Assembly (NCBI GenBank): GCA_902774915.1
Contig: CACYKH010000014.1
Coordinates: forward strand, 16,101 to 80,100
Direction of reading: 5' to 3'
DNA: 64,000 nt
Source: an uncultured Lachnospiraceae bacterium
GTDB taxonomy: Bacteria; Bacillota; Clostridia; Lachnospirales; Lachnospiraceae
Shown: positions 21,977 through 32,527 of the stretch, piece by piece
How the letters are laid out: the number at the start of each line of letters is the position of its first letter
Position numbering within the stretch: the first letter of the stretch is position 1
The notes under the pieces: generated by a model
The model's input: the letters and a program-made list of their open reading frames with translations, nothing else
Database searches by the model: none
Told to the model about the DNA's origin: nothing
Translations under genes and position numbers: made by a program

Positions 21977-23482
21977 ATGAAACTTCGTGACCTACTAAAA
22001 TATAATGATATAGTAATCCAGTGTCATGATAATCCGGATGCAGATGCGTTGGCATCGGGCTATGGATTATGGTGGTATCTGAAAAAGAATGGAAAAAGGC
22101 CAAGATTTATATATAGAGGAAAAAACAAAATACAGAAGAGTAATCTCGTGCTAATGCTTAGTTTTCTGGAGATTCCTGTAAAATACGAGCCTGATTTTTC
22201 TGATAATCCGGAGCTTCTTGTTACCGTTGACTGTCAGTACGGACAGAGAAATGTTACAAAGACCGAGGCTCAGGAAGTAGCTATAATAGACCATCACCAA
22301 AAAACTGTAGAGCTGCCTCCACTGTCAGAAGTGAAAAGTAATTTAGGCAGCTGCTCGACAATAATCTGGGACATGATTAGGCAGGAAGGTCTGGATGTTG
22401 TTTCAGATGTTAATTTATCCACTGCTTTATATTATGGCCTCTATACAGATACGAATCGTTTTTCTGAGATTTCCCATCCTCTTGACAGGGACATGATAGA
22501 CTGCCTTATTGTAAATAAAAGTATTATTACCGAGATGAGTAATTCCAATATTTCGCTGGATGAACTCAAGATTACAGGACGCGCCATACAGCATTATCAT
22601 TACAAGGAACAAAATAAATATATAGTTATGCATGCAGAAAAATGCGATCCTAATATTCTCGGAGTGATAAGTGATTTTTCTATGGAGACCGCCGGCATTA
22701 ATGTTTGCCTTGCATACTATACAAGTCCTGAGGAAGTGAAGTTTTCAGTGAGAAGCTGCGTAAGGGAAGTCCATGCAAATGAGCTGGCTGCATTTATTGC
22801 AGATGGTATTGGCGGTGGTGGAGGACATTTGTTTAAAGCAGGTGGAACCCTCAGACCTGAAAAGCTGCCTGAAACAAAGGATGAAAAAGAGTTTGATGCA
22901 ATGGTTTACTCACTTTTTATCGACAGGCTGAATCAGTATTTTGATATGTATGAGATCATTTATGCAAAAGAAATGGTTCTGGATACAACTGATATGGAGA
23001 AATACGAGAAGAAGCCTATGGAGCTTGGATATGTAAAAATGACAGATATCTTTCCTGTTGATTCTCTTGCGGAGATCAGAACTCTTGAGGGCGACATCAA
23101 TATCAGAGTTAAAGAAGATACATATCTTATGATCGGAATAGCTGGTGAAGTTTATCCTATAACAAAACAAAAGCTGGAGAGTAGTTATGAGCTTACAGGA
23201 AACAAATACTCTCACAGCTTTGAATACGATCCTTCGATCAGGAATATTGTTACTGGCGAAAAAATAAGTGTTCTTAATTTTGCAAATGGTGTAATAAGTA
23301 CAGGGAAGTCCCGAATTTTGGCTAAGAAGCTGGATCATCATGTGAAGCTTTTCACAGCCTGGGATGATGAAAAATACTATTCGGGTACTCCTGGTGATTA
23401 TATAGCGGTGCGTGAAGATGATGAACACGATATCTATATAATCAGTGGTGAACTTTTCGACGACCTGTACGAAAAGATTTAA
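21977..23482 (+). CDS. DHH/DHHA1 phosphoesterase with C-terminal extension
   Basis: A 501-aa protein. The N-terminal DHH domain has CHDNPDADALASG (residues 16-28) and the metal-binding IIDHHQ; the DHHA1 domain carries GGGGGHLFKAGG. This is the core of NrnA-type nano-RNases and cyclic-dinucleotide phosphodiesterases. The last 170 residues form an additional domain not part of NrnA, of unknown role. The start at 21977 follows GGGAGGAAGGGG; an in-frame start 30 bp earlier lacks a site. Its stop codon overlaps that of the converging TIR gene. Confidence 0.8.
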   Translation: MKLRDLLKYNDIVIQCHDNPDADALASGYGLWWYLKKNGKRPRFIYRGKNKIQKSNLVLMLSFLEIPVKYEPDFSDNPELLVTVDCQYGQRNVTKTEAQEVAIIDHHQKTVELPPLSEVKSNLGSCSTIIWDMIRQEGLDVVSDVNLSTALYYGLYTDTNRFSEISHPLDRDMIDCLIVNKSIITEMSNSNISLDELKITGRAIQHYHYKEQNKYIVMHAEKCDPNILGVISDFSMETAGINVCLAYYTSPEEVKFSVRSCVREVHANELAAFIADGIGGGGGHLFKAGGTLRPEKLPETKDEKEFDAMVYSLFIDRLNQYFDMYEIIYAKEMVLDTTDMEKYEKKPMELGYVKMTDIFPVDSLAEIRTLEGDINIRVKEDTYLMIGIAGEVYPITKQKLESSYELTGNKYSHSFEYDPSIRNIVTGEKISVLNFANGVISTGKSRILAKKLDHHVKLFTAWDDEKYYSGTPGDYIAVREDDEHDIYIISGELFDDLYEKI

Positions 23483-26400
23483 TCATCAATTCCATAAAGT
23501 GATTTCTGCTCCTCGGAGAGTTCTTCTCCGTGGAGCATTTCATTTCCTATCTTAATCAATTCTTTGTCGGAGAAATGCTCAAAATATCCGTGTCTCATAT
23601 CACTTGACAATGTATAAAATCTATCAGTGGAAACCTGATATCCACACACTTTTGGTATTGTAGCCGCTAGTTCCCAGGACTCGGTATCTAAGGCGTACAT
23701 ATTTTCAGATATGGAGTTAAGATAAACATAATTGTTATCCTTGCTAACATACCATTCTGTGTTATATGTATAATCATCAATTTCTATCTCAGAAATAGGT
23801 TTGAAGTCCTTTGCATCATATACTGAAATAGAATTGCTATAGCATACAAGTATATAATCCTCTGAGCCCTTTTTGTAATAGAAGGCATCTACAGGCACAC
23901 TTCCTGTTTTAGTTATTGTGGAAATAGTGTTCCCTTCGCAGTCGAGTATGATCGTTCTTTTAGAATCGGTTACAAGAATCTTATTATTCTCAATAAATCG
24001 CGCATTATTAGTACCAGCCCAATCTTCCGGAAGGGATAAAGGAGTGACCTCGCCGGTGGACATATCAATAAAATAATCTCCACCAGACGATGCGTAGTAT
24101 AGTAAATTTTCTTCAGAAGAGAAGACAGGTTTACTTGCAGGGATAGTTCCTTCTGGTACATCAAATGTTTTACTTGTTCCATTAGAAAGATCCATAGTAT
24201 TAATTTTATAATTATTGTTTTCATCTAAATTAAAATAAGCAAATATATTGTCGGAAGCATAGAGCAAGTGGCTGGAAGTGGAATGGCACTGGCCAACCGG
24301 TTCCAAGGTTCTTTCGCCTGTTTCTAAGGACATCTTTCCGAGATATAAATCGCTTATATCGTCATCAAATGGCAGATTTAGAGCAAAATAGTATAAATAG
24401 GAATCGTAGATAGTAATAAATTCCATCCAATAAGTTGCTTCAATGTCATCTGCATCGAATTTTACAATTTTATAAGTATCATCTTTCAGGTTATATATGA
24501 TAAAAGCTCGAGTGTCTTCGGTGTAACCATCTTCTACATAATAATTTTCATCCATATAGTTTAGATAAGAAAAATAAAAGTTTTCCTGCCCATTAAGTAT
24601 ATGCCAATAAGGATTGTTAAAACTCGTGGCATAGTGAGAAATTCTTGTACTTTCTTCTGAACATATATATATTCCATCATTATAAACGATATATGAGATG
24701 TTCTGATTTAGCTTTTTAGTTAAATTAAATTGTCCTTCATTAAGTGTTCCATTATAACCATCGTTTGTAATGACAGATAAAGACTCATCATCATAATACA
24801 AATAAACTATTGGACTATTTGCGTCATAGCTTTCTTTTATTTCTCCGGTCTTCCAGTCATAGATAGTGCATATGGAACCCCAATAATGAATGACACTTTT
24901 ATTATCTATAGAATCAAGGAAGCCTTCTTTTGCCCCGGCTTCATTATTGGTGAATTCACTTCTCCATGTTTCTTTGGTGGTTTTTACATCAATGCATCGA
25001 AGGGTCACATCTGTATTTGACAAGTATCTATTGTTTTTATATATCATACTAAAATTTTCAGAATACTTGTATCCACTTATCAAAAGATATTCTTCGTTAT
25101 TCCAAAAATATGAAGTGGTATGTAGGTTGCTTTGTTCTAGTTCAGTAACCTTGAGCGTGGATAAATCCATTATATAATTAGTAGGCTGTGAGTTACTATC
25201 TAAAGAACCCATAGCAAGAAGCTTTTCTTCAGGAGAAATAGAGAATGTACTTACTACCTCATCCTCAGGGAAGTCGGTTGGAAAGCTTTCCAGAAGGCTG
25301 CCATCCTTAGAACTGTATTTTCTAAGCTCCGCACCACCGAAGAAGGCATAAAAAGCATCTTCTTTTTCACTGTTAATTATGTTTGTGTTTATTTTGTAAT
25401 CTTCAGATTCAATGGTATATGCAATTTCCCCTGATTGGGCATCATAAGCTGTGATAGCATTTTCATTCCATACCAAAAGATAATTGTTCTTTGTAAATGT
25501 GATGTTATACATGTCCTCGATTGATAATGTAGTTTCAAAAGTTTGCTCGTGAGTTTCAGTATCCCATACCTGTACGGTTTCGTATATATTGATAGAGGCG
25601 AGGTACTTTCCATCTTCAGATATTGATAATCCGTTTATGTCCATCTTAGATGTGTAAGAATAATCAAAATGGAAATTCTCATCAGAAGTAGGCTCGTAAA
25701 CTCCGGTAGCATCTGTGAGTGCATTTATGGCGGCTGTTGTAACCGGCTGCTTTTTGTTTTTTTCACTTGGCAGACCCGCCAGAGCCAGCTGGATTGCGGT
25801 TATCTTCTCAGATTCATCTAAAAGCTGCTGGGATTCATGCGCCAGATATTCGGATTTATTAATGAGCGCATTTTTATAATTTTTATTAATGGAATAAATG
25901 CCGTATATAAGCTGCAAAACAAAAAGAAGAGCTACAACAGAAATAATGGCAATGACCTTTGTCAGGTGCTTGATGTAGTAGGCTCTTTGTCTGTTAATTA
26001 GCTCACTATAAGAACAGCCAATAATGGCGCTTACCAATCGTGGCAGTTCTATTTTTTCGGCGATTTTTCTGGCAAATCGAAAATCACAGGAGAGGGGTTC
26101 CACCAGAGTGTCGTCTTCGTATTGAAGAACTTCAGGTACTACCTCTGCAGGTTCGCCCTCAATTAGAACAGTTAATATATGATCGCGGGAATGCTTCTCA
26201 AGAAAATAATTAATCTCGCGAAGTACCCATTCTGATTCCTTGGTTTTCTTAGAACAAATAACTATTAAATAGTCGGTGTTATCGAGTGCATCTGTTATTG
26301 TGTCAGAGAGATTGGCTGTTAGAGAGAGCTCGTCAGTATCACGAAATACTCTCTCAATCTTTTTGAATCCTGTTTTTTCCTGTATTCGATCCGGAATACG

Positions 26401-26490
26401 ATAATGCTCAAGCTCTCGCTGAATCAGTTTTGCAATTTTAGTATCTTCTACCTCGTGCTTGTATGAAATGAATGCATTGTACTTACTCAT
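23479..26490 (-). CDS. TIR-domain membrane protein with extracellular propeller-like repeats
   Basis: A 1003-aa protein. The cytosolic TIR domain (about 3-130) begins YNAFISYKHE, has RVFRDTDEL and YLIVICSKKTKESEWVLREI; E92 after W88 matches the catalytic glutamate position of TIR NADases. A linker shared with other Lachnospiraceae TIR proteins (EPLSCDF...LVSAIIGCSYSELINRQ, 131-168) leads to one transmembrane helix (about 176-200). The remaining 800 aa contain repeated beta-strand units (WDTETHEQTFET, YDAQSGEIAYTI, YDWKTGEIKESY) that suggest one or two beta-propellers outside the cell. The gene stands alone with a good ribosome-binding site. The function is unknown; NAD cleavage on ligand sensing is an inference. 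Confidence 0.85.
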   Translation of the reverse strand: MSKYNAFISYKHEVEDTKIAKLIQRELEHYRIPDRIQEKTGFKKIERVFRDTDELSLTANLSDTITDALDNTDYLIVICSKKTKESEWVLREINYFLEKHSRDHILTVLIEGEPAEVVPEVLQYEDDTLVEPLSCDFRFARKIAEKIELPRLVSAIIGCSYSELINRQRAYYIKHLTKVIAIISVVALLFVLQLIYGIYSINKNYKNALINKSEYLAHESQQLLDESEKITAIQLALAGLPSEKNKKQPVTTAAINALTDATGVYEPTSDENFHFDYSYTSKMDINGLSISEDGKYLASINIYETVQVWDTETHEQTFETTLSIEDMYNITFTKNNYLLVWNENAITAYDAQSGEIAYTIESEDYKINTNIINSEKEDAFYAFFGGAELRKYSSKDGSLLESFPTDFPEDEVVSTFSISPEEKLLAMGSLDSNSQPTNYIMDLSTLKVTELEQSNLHTTSYFWNNEEYLLISGYKYSENFSMIYKNNRYLSNTDVTLRCIDVKTTKETWRSEFTNNEAGAKEGFLDSIDNKSVIHYWGSICTIYDWKTGEIKESYDANSPIVYLYYDDESLSVITNDGYNGTLNEGQFNLTKKLNQNISYIVYNDGIYICSEESTRISHYATSFNNPYWHILNGQENFYFSYLNYMDENYYVEDGYTEDTRAFIIYNLKDDTYKIVKFDADDIEATYWMEFITIYDSYLYYFALNLPFDDDISDLYLGKMSLETGERTLEPVGQCHSTSSHLLYASDNIFAYFNLDENNNYKINTMDLSNGTSKTFDVPEGTIPASKPVFSSEENLLYYASSGGDYFIDMSTGEVTPLSLPEDWAGTNNARFIENNKILVTDSKRTIILDCEGNTISTITKTGSVPVDAFYYKKGSEDYILVCYSNSISVYDAKDFKPISEIEIDDYTYNTEWYVSKDNNYVYLNSISENMYALDTESWELAATIPKVCGYQVSTDRFYTLSSDMRHGYFEHFSDKELIKIGNEMLHGEELSEEQKSLYGIDD

Positions 26491-28760: not shown

Positions 28761-28832
28761 AGGGGTATCGCCAAATGGTAAGGCAACGGACTCTGACTCC
28801 GTCATTTCTAGGTTCGAATCCTAGTACCCCTG
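28761..28832 (+). tRNA. tRNA-Gln (anticodon CUG)
   Basis: A 72-nt cloverleaf: acceptor AGGGGTA / TACCCCT, D arm GCC...GGC, anticodon stem ACGGA / TCCGT around CTCTGAC (anticodon CTG), T arm CTAGG-TTCGAAT-CCTAG, discriminator G. CCA is not encoded. The 3' part is duplicated at the far end of the island downstream. Confidence 0.95.
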
Positions 28833-28877
28833 CTTGAAAGGTCTTAGTGGATAATTGAAACTAAGACCTTTTTTGTT
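28809..28877 (+). repeat. 69-bp direct repeat, left copy (attL-like)
   Basis: It runs from the T arm of tRNA-Gln through the tRNA terminator and is identical to 30873-30941 except for C28833 versus A30897. A repeat of a tRNA 3' end is the usual signature of site-specific integration. Confidence 0.93.
28838..28874 (+). terminator. tRNA-Gln terminator, part of the att repeat
   Basis: Stem AAGGTCTTAGT (28838-28848) / ACTAAGACCTT (28860-28870) ending in six T. The same hairpin is repeated at 30902-30938. Confidence 0.93.
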
Positions 28878-28904
28878 GACTTTAGCTGCCATATAGGATA
28901 AAAT
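28876..28904 (+). promoter_or_regulatory. promoter of the first island gene
   Basis: TTGACT (28876-28881), 17-bp spacer, TAAAAT (28899-28904). The first two bases of the -35 box belong to the att repeat, so the promoter spans the element boundary. Confidence 0.65.
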
Positions 28905-28919
28905 ACGAAAAAACGTATT
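28902..28919. promoter_or_regulatory. island operator copy 1, AATACG-N6-CGTATT
   Basis: A perfect inverted repeat overlapping the -10 box and start point of the first island gene. A near-identical site precedes the third island gene (29795). Confidence 0.6.
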
Positions 28920-28943
28920 AGAATTCGAAAAGGAGGCTATAAG

Positions 28944-29300
28944 ATGAGTTGTCATGATATAGGCGGAGGTATGAATTATGTATCGATTAAAGTGTTGGAG
29001 CTGTATAAAAGCGGGATGATCAGTAAGGAGGCTGCTATTCAATTAGTTCATGCTTGTCGAAAAGGGGTTCACTGGTGTGACGGAAATGAATATGAAGCTT
29101 TCGAGGGATTAATAGATGAGGGTATTTGTGGCTTGTGTTTTGAAAAATATGACGAGCTTACTAATATTTATGATAACGATATAGAGCATCCTGGTCGTTA
29201 TGAAGTGTTTAAAGATTATGATGATTCTGCGGCTCATTTTTTTCTATGTGATAAATGTAAAGCCAAGGTAATTGATGCATATCGCAAAAAGAATCAATAA
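28944..29300 (+). CDS. small CxxC protein of the 'MSCHDIG' type, unknown function
   Basis: A 118-aa soluble protein beginning MSCHDIGGGMNYVS. It has HWCDGNEYEAFEGL in the middle and two CxxC pairs (CGLC about residue 64 and CDKC about residue 103), which could form a zinc site. Related small proteins occur in Lachnospiraceae, but I know of no assigned function. AAAAGGAGG precedes the ATG. It is the first gene of the tRNA-Gln island and shares an operator motif with the third gene. Confidence 0.8.
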   Translation: MSCHDIGGGMNYVSIKVLELYKSGMISKEAAIQLVHACRKGVHWCDGNEYEAFEGLIDEGICGLCFEKYDELTNIYDNDIEHPGRYEVFKDYDDSAAHFFLCDKCKAKVIDAYRKKNQ

Positions 29301-29332
29301 TCAGTTTACGTCATAGGTAGTTATTGCGTTTA

Positions 29333-29397
29333 GTATTGAACTATTATATCAATACTTTTATAATGTACTTATTTATTTGATATGAGGATAAGTACAT
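29333..29397 (+). promoter_or_regulatory. promoter and double palindrome of the XRE gene
   Basis: TTGAAC (29336-29341), 17-bp spacer, TATAAT (29359-29364). One inverted repeat, GTATTGA-N9-TCAATAC (29333-29355), lies between -35 and -10. A second, ATGTACTTAT (29363-29372) with ATAAGTACAT (29388-29397), runs from the -10 box to the start codon. The layout suggests autorepression by the encoded HTH protein. Confidence 0.7.
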
Positions 29398-29755
29398 GGT
29401 TATTAGTGATAGAGTATTTGAATTATTAAAGGAAAAGGGGATGTCTCAAAAAGAGTTTTCTGAAAGAACGGGAATTCCTCAAAGTACGATAAGCGATTGG
29501 AAAAGAAAAAATGTCAATCCTGCTTCTGATAAAATAATGATTATATGTGAGGTTTTGGAAATAAGCCCAAGTGCGCTGTTATCTGGAATAGGTGATGATA
29601 CTTACGTTACTCCTGAGCATATGATAATTGATAAAGAGGGGGTTGAATATCAATTAGTCAATGGTTTTCGAGAACTGGATGAAAAAAGAAAAGAACGCCT
29701 TATAGGTTATTTGGAAGCCTTACAGGAGCATCTAAAGAATAAAGATAACACATAA
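29396..29755 (+). CDS. XRE/Cro-CI family repressor
   Basis: A 119-aa regulator with an N-terminal helix-turn-helix (about 5-62; MSQKEFSERTGIPQSTISDWKRKNVNPASDKIM) and a helical C-terminal part, perhaps for dimerisation. There is no peptidase domain. The start codon lies in the right arm of a palindrome, with GAGGA upstream. It has its own promoter and terminator in the middle of the island. The likely targets are its own promoter and the AATACG operators in front of the two flanking genes. Confidence 0.92.
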   Translation: MVISDRVFELLKEKGMSQKEFSERTGIPQSTISDWKRKNVNPASDKIMIICEVLEISPSALLSGIGDDTYVTPEHMIIDKEGVEYQLVNGFRELDEKRKERLIGYLEALQEHLKNKDNT

Positions 29756-29758
29756 TAG

Positions 29759-29786
29759 AACAGGTTTAAAAACCTGTTTTATTATT
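29759..29786 (+). terminator. terminator after the XRE gene
   Basis: Stem AACAGGTT / AACCTGTT with a 4-nt loop, then TTATTATT. Confidence 0.75.
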
Positions 29787-29794
29787 ACACACAC

Positions 29795-29820
29795 AATACG
29801 CATAATCGTATAATTATACG
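29795..29820. promoter_or_regulatory. island operator copy 2 with palindrome
   Basis: AATACG-N6-CGTATA (29795-29812) matches operator copy 1 in sequence and spacing, and it overlaps the perfect 14-bp palindrome CGTATAATTATACG (29807-29820). TATAAT at 29835-29840 is the probable -10 box of the next gene. Confidence 0.6.
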
Positions 29821-29860
29821 TTTATACAATAAGCTATAATTTGGAAAAGGAGGGAGAAGT

Positions 29861-30814
29861 ATGAAAGTGCAAAATGTATTAGCAAATAGAATAGATACAG
29901 CTGGAGAGATGATTTCTTATGATGAAGCATGTAAACAAGTTCTTGCAAATAAGATTATTCTTGCATGGATAATAAAAGGTTGCATTCAAGAGTATAATGA
30001 TTATAGTATTAAAGAAATAGCTGATAGATTTATTGAAGGGGACCCAGAAATATCTAAAGCGGCTGTACATATTGATGAAATAGCTGAATTTATTACTGGA
30101 ATGAATAATGAAAGCGCTACAATGAAAGAAGGCACGACTACATATGATATTAAATTTCGTGCTCTTTTGCCAGAAATGGATGAAGTGCTTGATATGATCA
30201 TTAATGTAGAGGCGCAGAATGACTTCTATCCCGGTTATCCTATTGTTAAAAGAGGAATATACTATGCTTGTAGAATGATTTCAGAACAGTATGGCACAGT
30301 ATTTACAAAGTCAGAATATAATAAGATAAAAAAGGTTGCAAGCATATGGATTTGTCCGAATCCGCCAGAATATAGAAGGAATACTATTACTGGTTATAAA
30401 ATGGGCGAACATGGGATAATCGGTTCAGTTCAGGAAAAAGAGAGTAATTATGATTTATTAAAAGTAATTATTGTATGTCTTGGGGGAGAAGATAAGGAAG
30501 GATATAATGGTGTGTTAAGGATGCTAGATGTTCTTCTGTCTCAAGATACAGAACCATCAACGAAGAAAAAGATATTGCAAGAAGAATTTGGCATTCCGAT
30601 GACTACAAAATTGGAAGGAGATGTAGATACTATGTGTAATTTAAGTAAAGGCGTATATGAAAAGGGAATAGATAAAGCAAGTGTTGAGTCTATCATTAAT
30701 CTTATGGATAGTACAGGGTGGGATGTTGATATGAGTATGGATAAATTAAAGATTCCATCAGAAAAAAGAGACCTATACAAAGCTGCTGTTGAAGCTGAGC
30801 TTCAACTGGCATAA
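29861..30814 (+). CDS. Rpn-like PD-(D/E)XK family protein
   Basis: A 317-aa protein of the family often annotated as Rpn/PD-(D/E)XK transposase-like, common in Lachnospiraceae. Typical segments are ISYDEACKQVLANKIILAWI near the start, GTTTYDIKFRALLP, and INVEAQNDFYPGYPIVKRGIYYACRMIS, where D (YDIKF) and E-x-Q (VEAQ) fit a PD-(D/E)XK nuclease core. SIWICPNPPEYRRNTI and CNLSKGVYEKGIDKA follow. Rpn proteins promote recombination through DNA cleavage in Escherichia coli; activity here is inferred. AAAAGGAGGGAG precedes the ATG. It is the last gene of the island. Confidence 0.85.
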   Translation: MKVQNVLANRIDTAGEMISYDEACKQVLANKIILAWIIKGCIQEYNDYSIKEIADRFIEGDPEISKAAVHIDEIAEFITGMNNESATMKEGTTTYDIKFRALLPEMDEVLDMIINVEAQNDFYPGYPIVKRGIYYACRMISEQYGTVFTKSEYNKIKKVASIWICPNPPEYRRNTITGYKMGEHGIIGSVQEKESNYDLLKVIIVCLGGEDKEGYNGVLRMLDVLLSQDTEPSTKKKILQEEFGIPMTTKLEGDVDTMCNLSKGVYEKGIDKASVESIINLMDSTGWDVDMSMDKLKIPSEKRDLYKAAVEAELQLA

Positions 30815-30872
30815 TTACAAATAATCGTATTACCACATAAATTAGCATAATAGTAAGGGATATTGGAAAGAA

Positions 30873-30941
30873 TAGGTTCGAATCCTAGTACCCCTGATTG
30901 AAAGGTCTTAGTGGATAATTGAAACTAAGACCTTTTTTGTT
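30873..30941 (+). repeat. 69-bp direct repeat, right copy (attR-like)
   Basis: 68 of 69 bases match 28809-28877. It carries only the T arm and acceptor 3' strand of the tRNA plus the terminator hairpin, so it cannot itself be a tRNA. It still provides a terminator behind the last island gene. Confidence 0.93.
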
Positions 30942-30980
30942 TATGTCGCAAAATTGTCACGAAAATTATACAATAATCGT

Positions 30981-31094
30981 GACAAAGTCGGATGGCATTA
31001 CCTTTTGAAAAATGACAAAGTTGGGTGATACTATCCTTTGAAAAATGACAATACTTACCGTGTTTACCCCTTGAAAAATGACAAAACTCTTCGT
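30981..31094 (+). repeat. 33-bp tandem repeats, three and a half units
   Basis: Units start at 30981, 31014, 31047 and 31080 (partial). The core TTGAAAAATGACAA recurs at 31005, 31038 and 31071 with exact 33-bp period; the middle of each unit varies (units 1 and 2 share 26 of 33 bases). In one frame the units read DKVGxxYPLKN-like peptides but with a stop and no start. The array fills most of the 306-bp gap between the island and the ATPase gene. Confidence 0.85.
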
Positions 31095-31099
31095 ATAAT
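31071..31099 (+). promoter_or_regulatory. promoter of the DUF4143 ATPase, -35 supplied by the repeat
   Basis: TTGAAA (31071-31076) is the beginning of the third repeat core; after 17 bp comes TATAAT (31094-31099). The start codon is only about 20 bp further on. Confidence 0.75.
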
Positions 31100-31120
31100 A
31101 TATGTACATGGAGGTGGAAA

Positions 31121-32527
31121 ATGCTTAAAAGAACTATTTGGAACAGCTTAATAGGCTGGAAAAGACGAGAACATCATCCATTGGTCATCAAGGGTCTAAG
31201 GCAGATAGGAAAAACATATATCGTCCGTCGATTCGGTGAGGAGTTTTACGACAACTGTGTATACATAGATTTAAGAGCCAATACCAATGTTCATTATGCA
31301 TTTGATGGCGATTTCGATGTTGATCAAATGGTTTTATCAATTTCTGCTGTTATTAGAGATGCAAGATTTATTCCCGGAAAGACATTAATCATTTTGGATG
31401 AAATACAGGATTGTCCTAATGCAAGAAGCTCGCTCAAATATTGGGATATAGATGGAAGATATGATGTAATAGCAACAGGCAGTTTTCTTGGGGTAAAGGG
31501 CTTTCGAACGCCGTATACACGAGGTATTCCTGTAGGATATGAGGAACAGATTACAATGTTCCCATTAACATTTAAGGAATTTATTATTAATTCCGGTCTC
31601 AATACTGAAGTTATTGAGTATGTTAAAAATTCACTAAAGGATTTAAAGCCAATTGACAAAACAATTCATGAGAGCATGCGTTCGTTGTATTTACAATACC
31701 TTATTGTAGGGGGGATGCCTGAGGTTGTAAATGTCTATTTAGAAACTCATGATCTAAATGCGGTGAGAACAATTCAGAGAACGGTATTAAGCTCAATAAA
31801 GGATGATTTTGGAAGATATAAGAATGCTCAAGGCAATGATGCTGTAAATGAAGTATTAAAATTAAGGGCTGAAGCCTGCTTGGAATCATTACCGACTCAG
31901 CTGGCGAAGAATTATAAGAAGTTTCAGTATAGTTTAGTAAATGTGAAGGGTCATTCTCCTGAAAAAGCAGACGGGTTGCAGTATATTGAAGATGTGGGGA
32001 TTGTAGTAAAGTCTTACAACACAAGAGAAATATCTTTTCCTTTGGAAGGTGTTAAGATACCATCGGAATTTAAGGTCTTTTATATTGATACGGGACTTCT
32101 CGTTTCTCAGTTGGGGGATGAGGTTCCACAAGAGATACTCAAAGGAAATATCAGTTCTTACAAGGGTGCCATTGCTGAAAATATGGTTGCATCTGCGTTT
32201 GCTGCTAACGGAATTGCTCTTTATTACTTTCATGCTCCAAGTGGGTCTCCTGAATTAGATTTTCTGTTTGAAAAAAACGGAGAAGTAAATATTGTTGAAT
32301 GCAAAGCATCTAATGATAGAGCTACAAGTATGAAATTCGTTATTGCAAATCAAAAGAAATACGGAAAACATTCTGCAGTAAAATTTGCTGATACAAATGT
32401 TGGTGGAGGAGAGGGATTCATCACTTTACCATTATATGCAGTAGGCTTGATTGAACTGAATAATGAACAAAGAATAGTTGACACGATTGATTTGAGTAAT
32501 CTAAAGGTGCCAACGGATGTTTCTTAA
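31121..32527 (+). CDS. AAA+ ATPase with DUF4143 domain
   Basis: A 468-aa AAA_14/DUF4143 protein. Walker A is IKGLRQIGKTYIV, Walker B TLIILDEIQDCPNA, followed by the arginine-sensor region IATGSFLGV. The C-terminal half carries a restriction-endonuclease-like fold (ENMVASAFAANG, ELDFLFEKNGEVNIVECKA, where E, D and E-x-K line up). These proteins are widespread in anaerobes and their job is not established. GGAGGTGG precedes the ATG. It lies just outside the tRNA-Gln island behind the repeat array and may be another acquired gene. Confidence 0.93.
   Translation: MLKRTIWNSLIGWKRREHHPLVIKGLRQIGKTYIVRRFGEEFYDNCVYIDLRANTNVHYAFDGDFDVDQMVLSISAVIRDARFIPGKTLIILDEIQDCPNARSSLKYWDIDGRYDVIATGSFLGVKGFRTPYTRGIPVGYEEQITMFPLTFKEFIINSGLNTEVIEYVKNSLKDLKPIDKTIHESMRSLYLQYLIVGGMPEVVNVYLETHDLNAVRTIQRTVLSSIKDDFGRYKNAQGNDAVNEVLKLRAEACLESLPTQLAKNYKKFQYSLVNVKGHSPEKADGLQYIEDVGIVVKSYNTREISFPLEGVKIPSEFKVFYIDTGLLVSQLGDEVPQEILKGNISSYKGAIAENMVASAFAANGIALYYFHAPSGSPELDFLFEKNGEVNIVECKASNDRATSMKFVIANQKKYGKHSAVKFADTNVGGGEGFITLPLYAVGLIELNNEQRIVDTIDLSNLKVPTDVS

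Follow-up and report, generated by a model that had tools for sequence, protein, structure and literature searches.

We analysed a 64,000-nt stretch of DNA from an uncultured Lachnospiraceae bacterium (contig CACYKH010000014.1, positions 16,101 to 80,100 of the forward strand; hereafter the window, to which all positions refer), in which a small unit bounded by two direct repeats lies at the 3′ end of a tRNA-Gln(CTG) gene. Three open reading frames (ORFs) of 118, 119 and 317 amino acids (aa) were found between the repeats, encoding a protein with CxxC pairs, a helix-turn-helix (HTH) regulator of the XRE type and a protein resembling the Rpn nucleases (Table 1). Profile and library searches detected no recombinase family match among the three ORFs; the words "putative transposase" that occur in this context are part of the Rpn-type family names. 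An earlier note, made from the sequence alone, had described a 69-nt repeat with one mismatch that brackets three genes without a recombinase, and the repeat, ORF and family searches confirmed this description. In what follows, genomes are labelled Gnnn (G000 is the host) and loci Lnnn.

Table 1. Features at the tRNA-Gln(CTG) locus of the window.
Feature	Position	Strand	Remarks
tRNA-Gln(CTG), insertion target	28761-28833	+	ARAGORN
Left 69-bp repeat, covering the tRNA T-arm, the 3′ strand of its acceptor stem and the terminator	28809-28877	+	
Promoter-like site of the first gene	28876-28904	+	consensus scan only
118-aa protein with CxxC pairs	28944-29300	+	Pfam below cut-off only
XRE/Cro-CI type HTH regulator, 119 aa	29396-29755	+	Pfam HTH_3, 3.5e-12
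Hairpin after the XRE gene, probable terminator	29752-29785	+	-16 kcal/mol, z -7.1
Palindrome before the Rpn gene	29802-29825	no strand	partly conserved beside the G070 XRE gene
Putative Rpn-type PD-(D/E)XK nuclease, 317 aa (RpnL)	29861-30814	+	core D96, E117, Q119
Probable internal start (Met258) of a C-terminal, RpnS-like antitoxin	30632-30814	+	
Right 69-bp repeat: displaced T-arm fragment plus terminator	30873-30941	+	
AAA_14/DUF4143 ATPase, candidate defence gene PDC-S01, outside the repeats	31121-32527	+	E 7.1e-128

The two repeats are identical at 68 of 69 nt, the sole mismatch being a C at 28833 against an A at 30897; their starts lie 2064 nt apart and they enclose 1,995 bp. An intact tDNA followed downstream by a displaced 3′ fragment in the same orientation, the signature used by Islander, is therefore present at the locus. 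With up to one mismatch allowed, the host genome (2.61 Mb, 67 contigs) contains two copies of the 22-nt tRNA core and no more, and no third copy of the 24-nt tRNA part was found in the window at up to seven mismatches. The two genome copies of the core rule out a common dispersed repeat as the source of the right copy, an origin that the earlier note had named as fatal to its proposal. A terminator hairpin folds in both repeats (-16.6 kcal/mol, z -5.1 and -6.4, 0/200 shuffles as good); its 11-nt loop exceeds the limit of 8 set in our simple terminator scan, which is why it was not listed there. Identity between the repeats stops exactly where this terminator ends. By restoring the tRNA 3′ end together with its terminator, insertion would leave transcription and termination of the tRNA unchanged, and a similar hairpin was seen by eye directly after the rebuilt tRNA in integrase-bearing relatives, in agreement with what had been claimed for a repeat-carried terminator.

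The unit differs from its surroundings in composition. Its guanine-plus-cytosine content (GC) is 0.331 between the repeats versus 0.398 for the whole window, and the GC at third codon positions (GC3) of its three genes is 0.23-0.28, compared with 0.41 for the upstream isochorismatase gene, 0.33 for the two ATP-binding cassette (ABC) genes on the right and 0.29 for the DUF4143 gene. The CxxC protein gene was present in one of 146 genomes, the host itself, and its product had no other relative in these genomes or in phages, plasmids or viral contigs. When the whole unit was used as query, plasmids gave no match and phage records gave 75 bp at 76% in a single record; the two edge sequences did not occur in viral contigs.

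The largest gene of the unit probably encodes a self-controlled nuclease of a virus-protecting family. Relatives of its product were found in 26 of the 146 genomes, host included, and in an alignment of 26 sequences the residues D96 and E117 never vary and Q119 hardly does; we assign the three as putative catalytic residues of the PD-(D/E)XK type. At an E value of 0.01, 15 of the 26 aligned proteins matched TIGR01784 (Rpn family recombination-promoting nuclease/putative transposase) and 17 matched PDDEXK_2. A predicted fold of the window protein reached a predicted local distance difference test score (pLDDT) of 81. Met258 is also nearly invariant in the alignment, and its column holds a start codon in 26 of 29 homologues (25 ATG, one GTG), mostly after a purine-rich stretch, the remaining three being fragments or different at that point. 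In many homologues, four-residue repeats of the GIEK/GIEQ kind follow directly after this column. RpnL/RpnS genes are antiphage toxin-antitoxin systems and are described as neither encoding conventional transposases nor being autonomously mobile (PMC10327210). A conserved, probable internal start before the C-terminal domain, variable four-residue repeats among homologues, a PD-(D/E)XK-type core and horizontal spread are common to those systems and to the window gene and its relatives (PMC10327210). The window protein is distant in sequence from the named models, and its gene differs from theirs in adjoining an XRE regulator and a CxxC protein between attachment-like repeats. The cargo is best read as a predicted Rpn toxin-antitoxin gene, with nuclease RpnL and internal antitoxin RpnS, beside an XRE regulator.

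The tRNA-Gln(CTG) gene is an integration hotspot in this Lachnospiraceae genus. Within a set of 61 genus genomes, one form of the tRNA 3′ end was found in 21 at up to one mismatch and another form in 20 exactly. We inspected 46 stretches from 41 genomes; many contigs stop near the tRNA, so that a missing second copy means little. Eight tRNA-to-fragment intervals could be read, in seven genomes. Three of them contain a tyrosine integrase match (G001, 13 kb; G015, 9.4 kb; the first interval of G071, 10.4 kb), and five, window included, contained no tyrosine recombinase or resolvase-family (serine) match in whole-genome searches and measure 1.2-3.6 kb. The other recombinase-free intervals carry a RelB-type antitoxin gene whose partner has a RelE-like look and matched no family (G005, 1.2 kb), a zeta-toxin-like gene (G031, 1.3 kb, fragment interrupted by N), a tyrosine-phosphatase-like protein (G002, 2.4 kb) and one large ORF (second interval of G071, 3.6 kb). 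Toxin, antitoxin or defence-type genes were thus found in three of the five (window, G005 and G031). In G005, about 430 bp before the antitoxin gene (L021 5230-5665) hold no clear gene and show near-repeats by eye.

Arms beside the fragments connect some of these intervals to integrase-bearing elements. The right arm of G005 is common to the integrase-bearing element of G001 and to G016 (0/200 shuffles each), and the arm of G002 is common to G011, whose fragment has an integrase match 180 bp away (0/200 shuffles). At least some integrase-less units here therefore either descend from integrase-bearing elements or borrow their site. In G071 the first and third copies are 91% alike over 146 bp that start at the T-arm and run past the terminator, which is the pattern that a tandem of two related elements would leave. 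A 75-nt stretch with inverted repeats (L284 5699-5773, minus strand) splits an attachment fragment of G071 just before the T-arm, and similar last bases are seen in another fragment at that position (L284 ~2076-2089).

As a rule, the partial copies begin further upstream in the tRNA than the one in the window. Ten of the 14 outside the window plainly start at the anticodon loop (CTCTGAC); among the other four, that of G036 is cut by the contig end exactly at the anticodon loop, N letters mask that of G031, and two G071 copies, changed just before the T-arm, keep part of the anticodon arm. In G001, G002, G005 and G015, comparison by eye shows unlike terminators at the left and right copies, which is what an element bringing its own terminator would produce.

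In genome G070, the same left neighbours are present (an OB-HD protein, 78%, and the isochorismatase, 88%) beside one tRNA only, which is followed by a related terminator; the unit's three genes are all absent from that place. The related terminator sequence was found after the tRNA in both G070 and G063 and after the fragment in G083. Four of five flank comparisons between the window and G070 or G083 were not significant; an AT-rich, promoter-like stretch common to the left inner edge and G070 (P 0.001) was given no interpretation. A scan of isochorismatase loci (best 80 of 363) found a tRNA-Gln in reach at two loci only, and none of the genomes examined offered a clean empty site sharing the right flank of the unit. 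The search for an empty site that the earlier note had called for accordingly recovered the left neighbourhood without the unit, and not a matching right flank.

Taken as a whole, these results show a three-gene unit of foreign composition, without a recombinase, between two repeats at a tRNA hotspot. We consider it reasonably probable that it is an acquired, integrase-less mini-island, a passenger resembling the cis-mobilizable elements (CIMEs), with Rpn-type cargo. It would have entered tRNA-Gln by site-specific recombination, either alone or within a larger or tandem element, and would now be passive, able to leave only if another element provided a suitable integrase; its toxin-antitoxin cargo may give phage protection or addiction to the locus. 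Several observations weigh against this reading. The right copy starts at the T-arm rather than at the anticodon loop typical of the genus, no trace of the anticodon arm was detected on either strand between 28835 and 31200, and the upstream arm of the window matched none of 11 other arms (for the best, 23 of 200 shuffles were as good). The two terminators of the window are nearly identical by eye, in contrast to those of G001, G002, G005 and G015. At G070 the right flank is different and the contig stops about 4 kb on, so that it offers no perfect empty site. As to the cargo, the window Rpn protein matched Pfam PDDEXK_2 at E 0.0013 with 18.9 bits, below the curated cut-off of 27.4; its predicted fold gave no match in the PDB at E 0.001, and neither this search nor the profile search recovered an Rpn structure; and the ribosome-binding site lies 11 nt from Met258, a long spacing. 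An NCBIfam search with the same protein gave no match, and the sole match of its structural profile search was a CAP repeat chain, over profile positions 284-321 only. The earlier note's reading of a foreign integrase-less unit at the tRNA is supported by the low GC, the rarity of the first gene, G070 and the recurrence of such units in the genus; the repeat is not the site that the other elements at this tRNA use, since it lacks their anticodon-loop start and their arms. The attachment structure of the window is either a T-loop type site or an eroded site in a former tandem.

The first of these structures would also suit a minimal satellite whose attachment site comprises the T-arm and terminator and which is still moved in trans by the integrase of another element. 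The window repeat starts 4 nt before the 7-nt T-loop and has TAGG/CCTA arms around TTCGAAT, and the near-identity of the repeats suggests a recent event. In tRNA islands, sites in the T-stem region are almost as frequent as those at the anticodon: the 3919 islands of Islander comprise 2083 anticodon-centred and 1836 T-stem-region sites, the latter class also taking in the T/acceptor junction (PMC4383910). Eleven tyrosine recombinase family matches in the host genome could provide the enzyme. Such a satellite is decidedly unlikely in our view, as no other untouched T-arm-only copy was present among the 14 partial copies of the genus, the plasmid, phage and viral-contig searches recovered nothing beyond the single short phage match, and no integrase of such specificity was found among the elements examined. 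On this contig there is a single tyrosine recombinase match, about 39 kb upstream of the tRNA and outside the window, and no serine recombinase (resolvase family) match was found in the host genome. The host recombinases showed at most about 27% identity to the integrases of G001 and G015 over longer alignments, and 31% over one 92-residue stretch; no close relative of those integrases was found in the host. The satellite moved in trans that had been proposed for this unit thus gained no support, and movement by another element's integrase is possible. Three consecutive tyrosine recombinase matches lie at G000:C39:1330-3749 in the host genome.

An origin without any site-specific event is unlikely. 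Ordinary or illegitimate recombination would in that case have copied the tRNA end with its terminator, as when a circle carrying the 69-bp sequence inserts by a single crossover. The limits of the repeat differ from the site of the known elements and coincide with the terminator end, as such an event would allow; site-specific insertion accounts better for the location at a tRNA 3′ end, for the orientation and for a hotspot seen across the genus. Nor does the Rpn nuclease seem to have made the repeats, since flanking repeats were absent from all 28 other Rpn stretches (27 distinct loci, six with less than 600 nt of flank on one side). It is highly improbable that the right copy is the remnant of a second, decayed tRNA-Gln gene, with the three genes simply located between two tRNA genes. 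Close-set pairs or triples of tRNA-Gln genes do occur elsewhere in the family, but in all 15 loci fetched outside the genus, among the matches listed, the genes are complete, and the sequence preceding the right copy shows no significant likeness to the 5′ half of the tRNA (P 0.105), although 68 of 69 positions agree in the 3′ part.

The same tRNA end appears in viral DNA. Among viral contigs, 14 loci contain the tRNA core; seven have other tRNA genes upstream, as judged by eye, and in the other seven ARAGORN detected no tRNA. At L104, L109, L111 and L113, the fragment lies at most about 200 bp from a tyrosine-integrase-like ORF and has anticodon-arm sequence upstream (by eye), an attP-like layout implying that the tRNA end is also an attachment site in unrelated phages; at L116 and L117 no integrase was visible. 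In phage records with the tRNA end (best 20 of 157), 15 were annotated tRNA-Gln genes and five were unannotated.

The unit, a probable CIME-like passenger, is a known kind of passenger DNA, unusually small and with an attachment structure unlike the others at its site. CIMEs were proposed for the integrase-less ssrA islands of Dehalococcoides, which likewise have attL/attR-like repeats at the 3′ end of a tRNA or transfer-messenger RNA (tmRNA) gene, no integration or transfer genes and a site also used by integrase-bearing relatives (PMC3146451). The window unit has such att-like flanks without recombination or transfer genes, and its arm matched none of the 11 arms compared. It differs further in spanning only 2 kb with three genes, in an attachment core unlike that of the site's other elements, and in the lack of a recombinase match within about 39 kb upstream or downstream to the contig end; the Dehalococcoides integrase is a serine recombinase (PMC3146451). 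The phage-defence islands I23, I44 and I55 of Pseudomonas also lie downstream of a tRNA-like gene, with direct repeats, defence cargo and no transfer genes, but carry a tyrosine integrase, which the window unit lacks (PMC12595487). Islander, which asks for an internal integrase gene absent here, drops tRNA intervals without an integrase or shorter than 2 kb (PMC4383910). A whole class of minimal defence passengers, in which a few toxin, toxin-antitoxin or defence genes lie between tRNA-end repeats, possibly with a terminator, are moved in trans by integrases of other elements at that tRNA and are missed by finders that require an integrase, is conceivable but doubtful. Were integrase-bearing neighbours to mobilise such units, defence genes would travel in pieces far below the size usually counted; if they are mere remains, the site would show addiction and defence genes outlasting the decay of larger elements.

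Among the minor features of the unit, the first two bases of the -35 element (TTGACT) of the promoter-like site are supplied by the repeat end; the consensus scan returned 16 sites against 12.6 expected by shuffling. Family-model searches gave the CxxC protein no assignment, and its predicted fold (pLDDT 48.8) was too poor for use. A lone copy of the XRE regulator, 85% identical, is present in G070, where the hairpin is also kept, as is part of the palindrome that follows; the palindrome is a possible XRE operator. One of 17 loci with XRE homologues adjoins an Rpn relative (G092), and the homologue of G086, likewise one of the 17, looks to adjoin an Rpn-like gene. At six of the 17 (L188, L196, L197, L198, L199 and L201), the homologue lies upstream of transposase-like genes that we take to be of the REP type (Y1).

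Outside the repeats, a 1003-aa protein encoded at 23479-26490 on the minus strand has a TIR-like N-terminus and is a possible further defence gene. The DUF4143 ATPase to the right of the unit is probably a recent arrival itself, to judge from its 91% identity to a protein of G013; for an adjacent ABC permease gene the identity in that genome is 62%. Three 33-bp tandem repeats (TTTGAAAAATGACAAA core) precede its gene at 30980-31100. The gene seems, from its distribution, to move on its own; together with part of the tandem repeats, it recurs elsewhere in G013 at 84% DNA identity.

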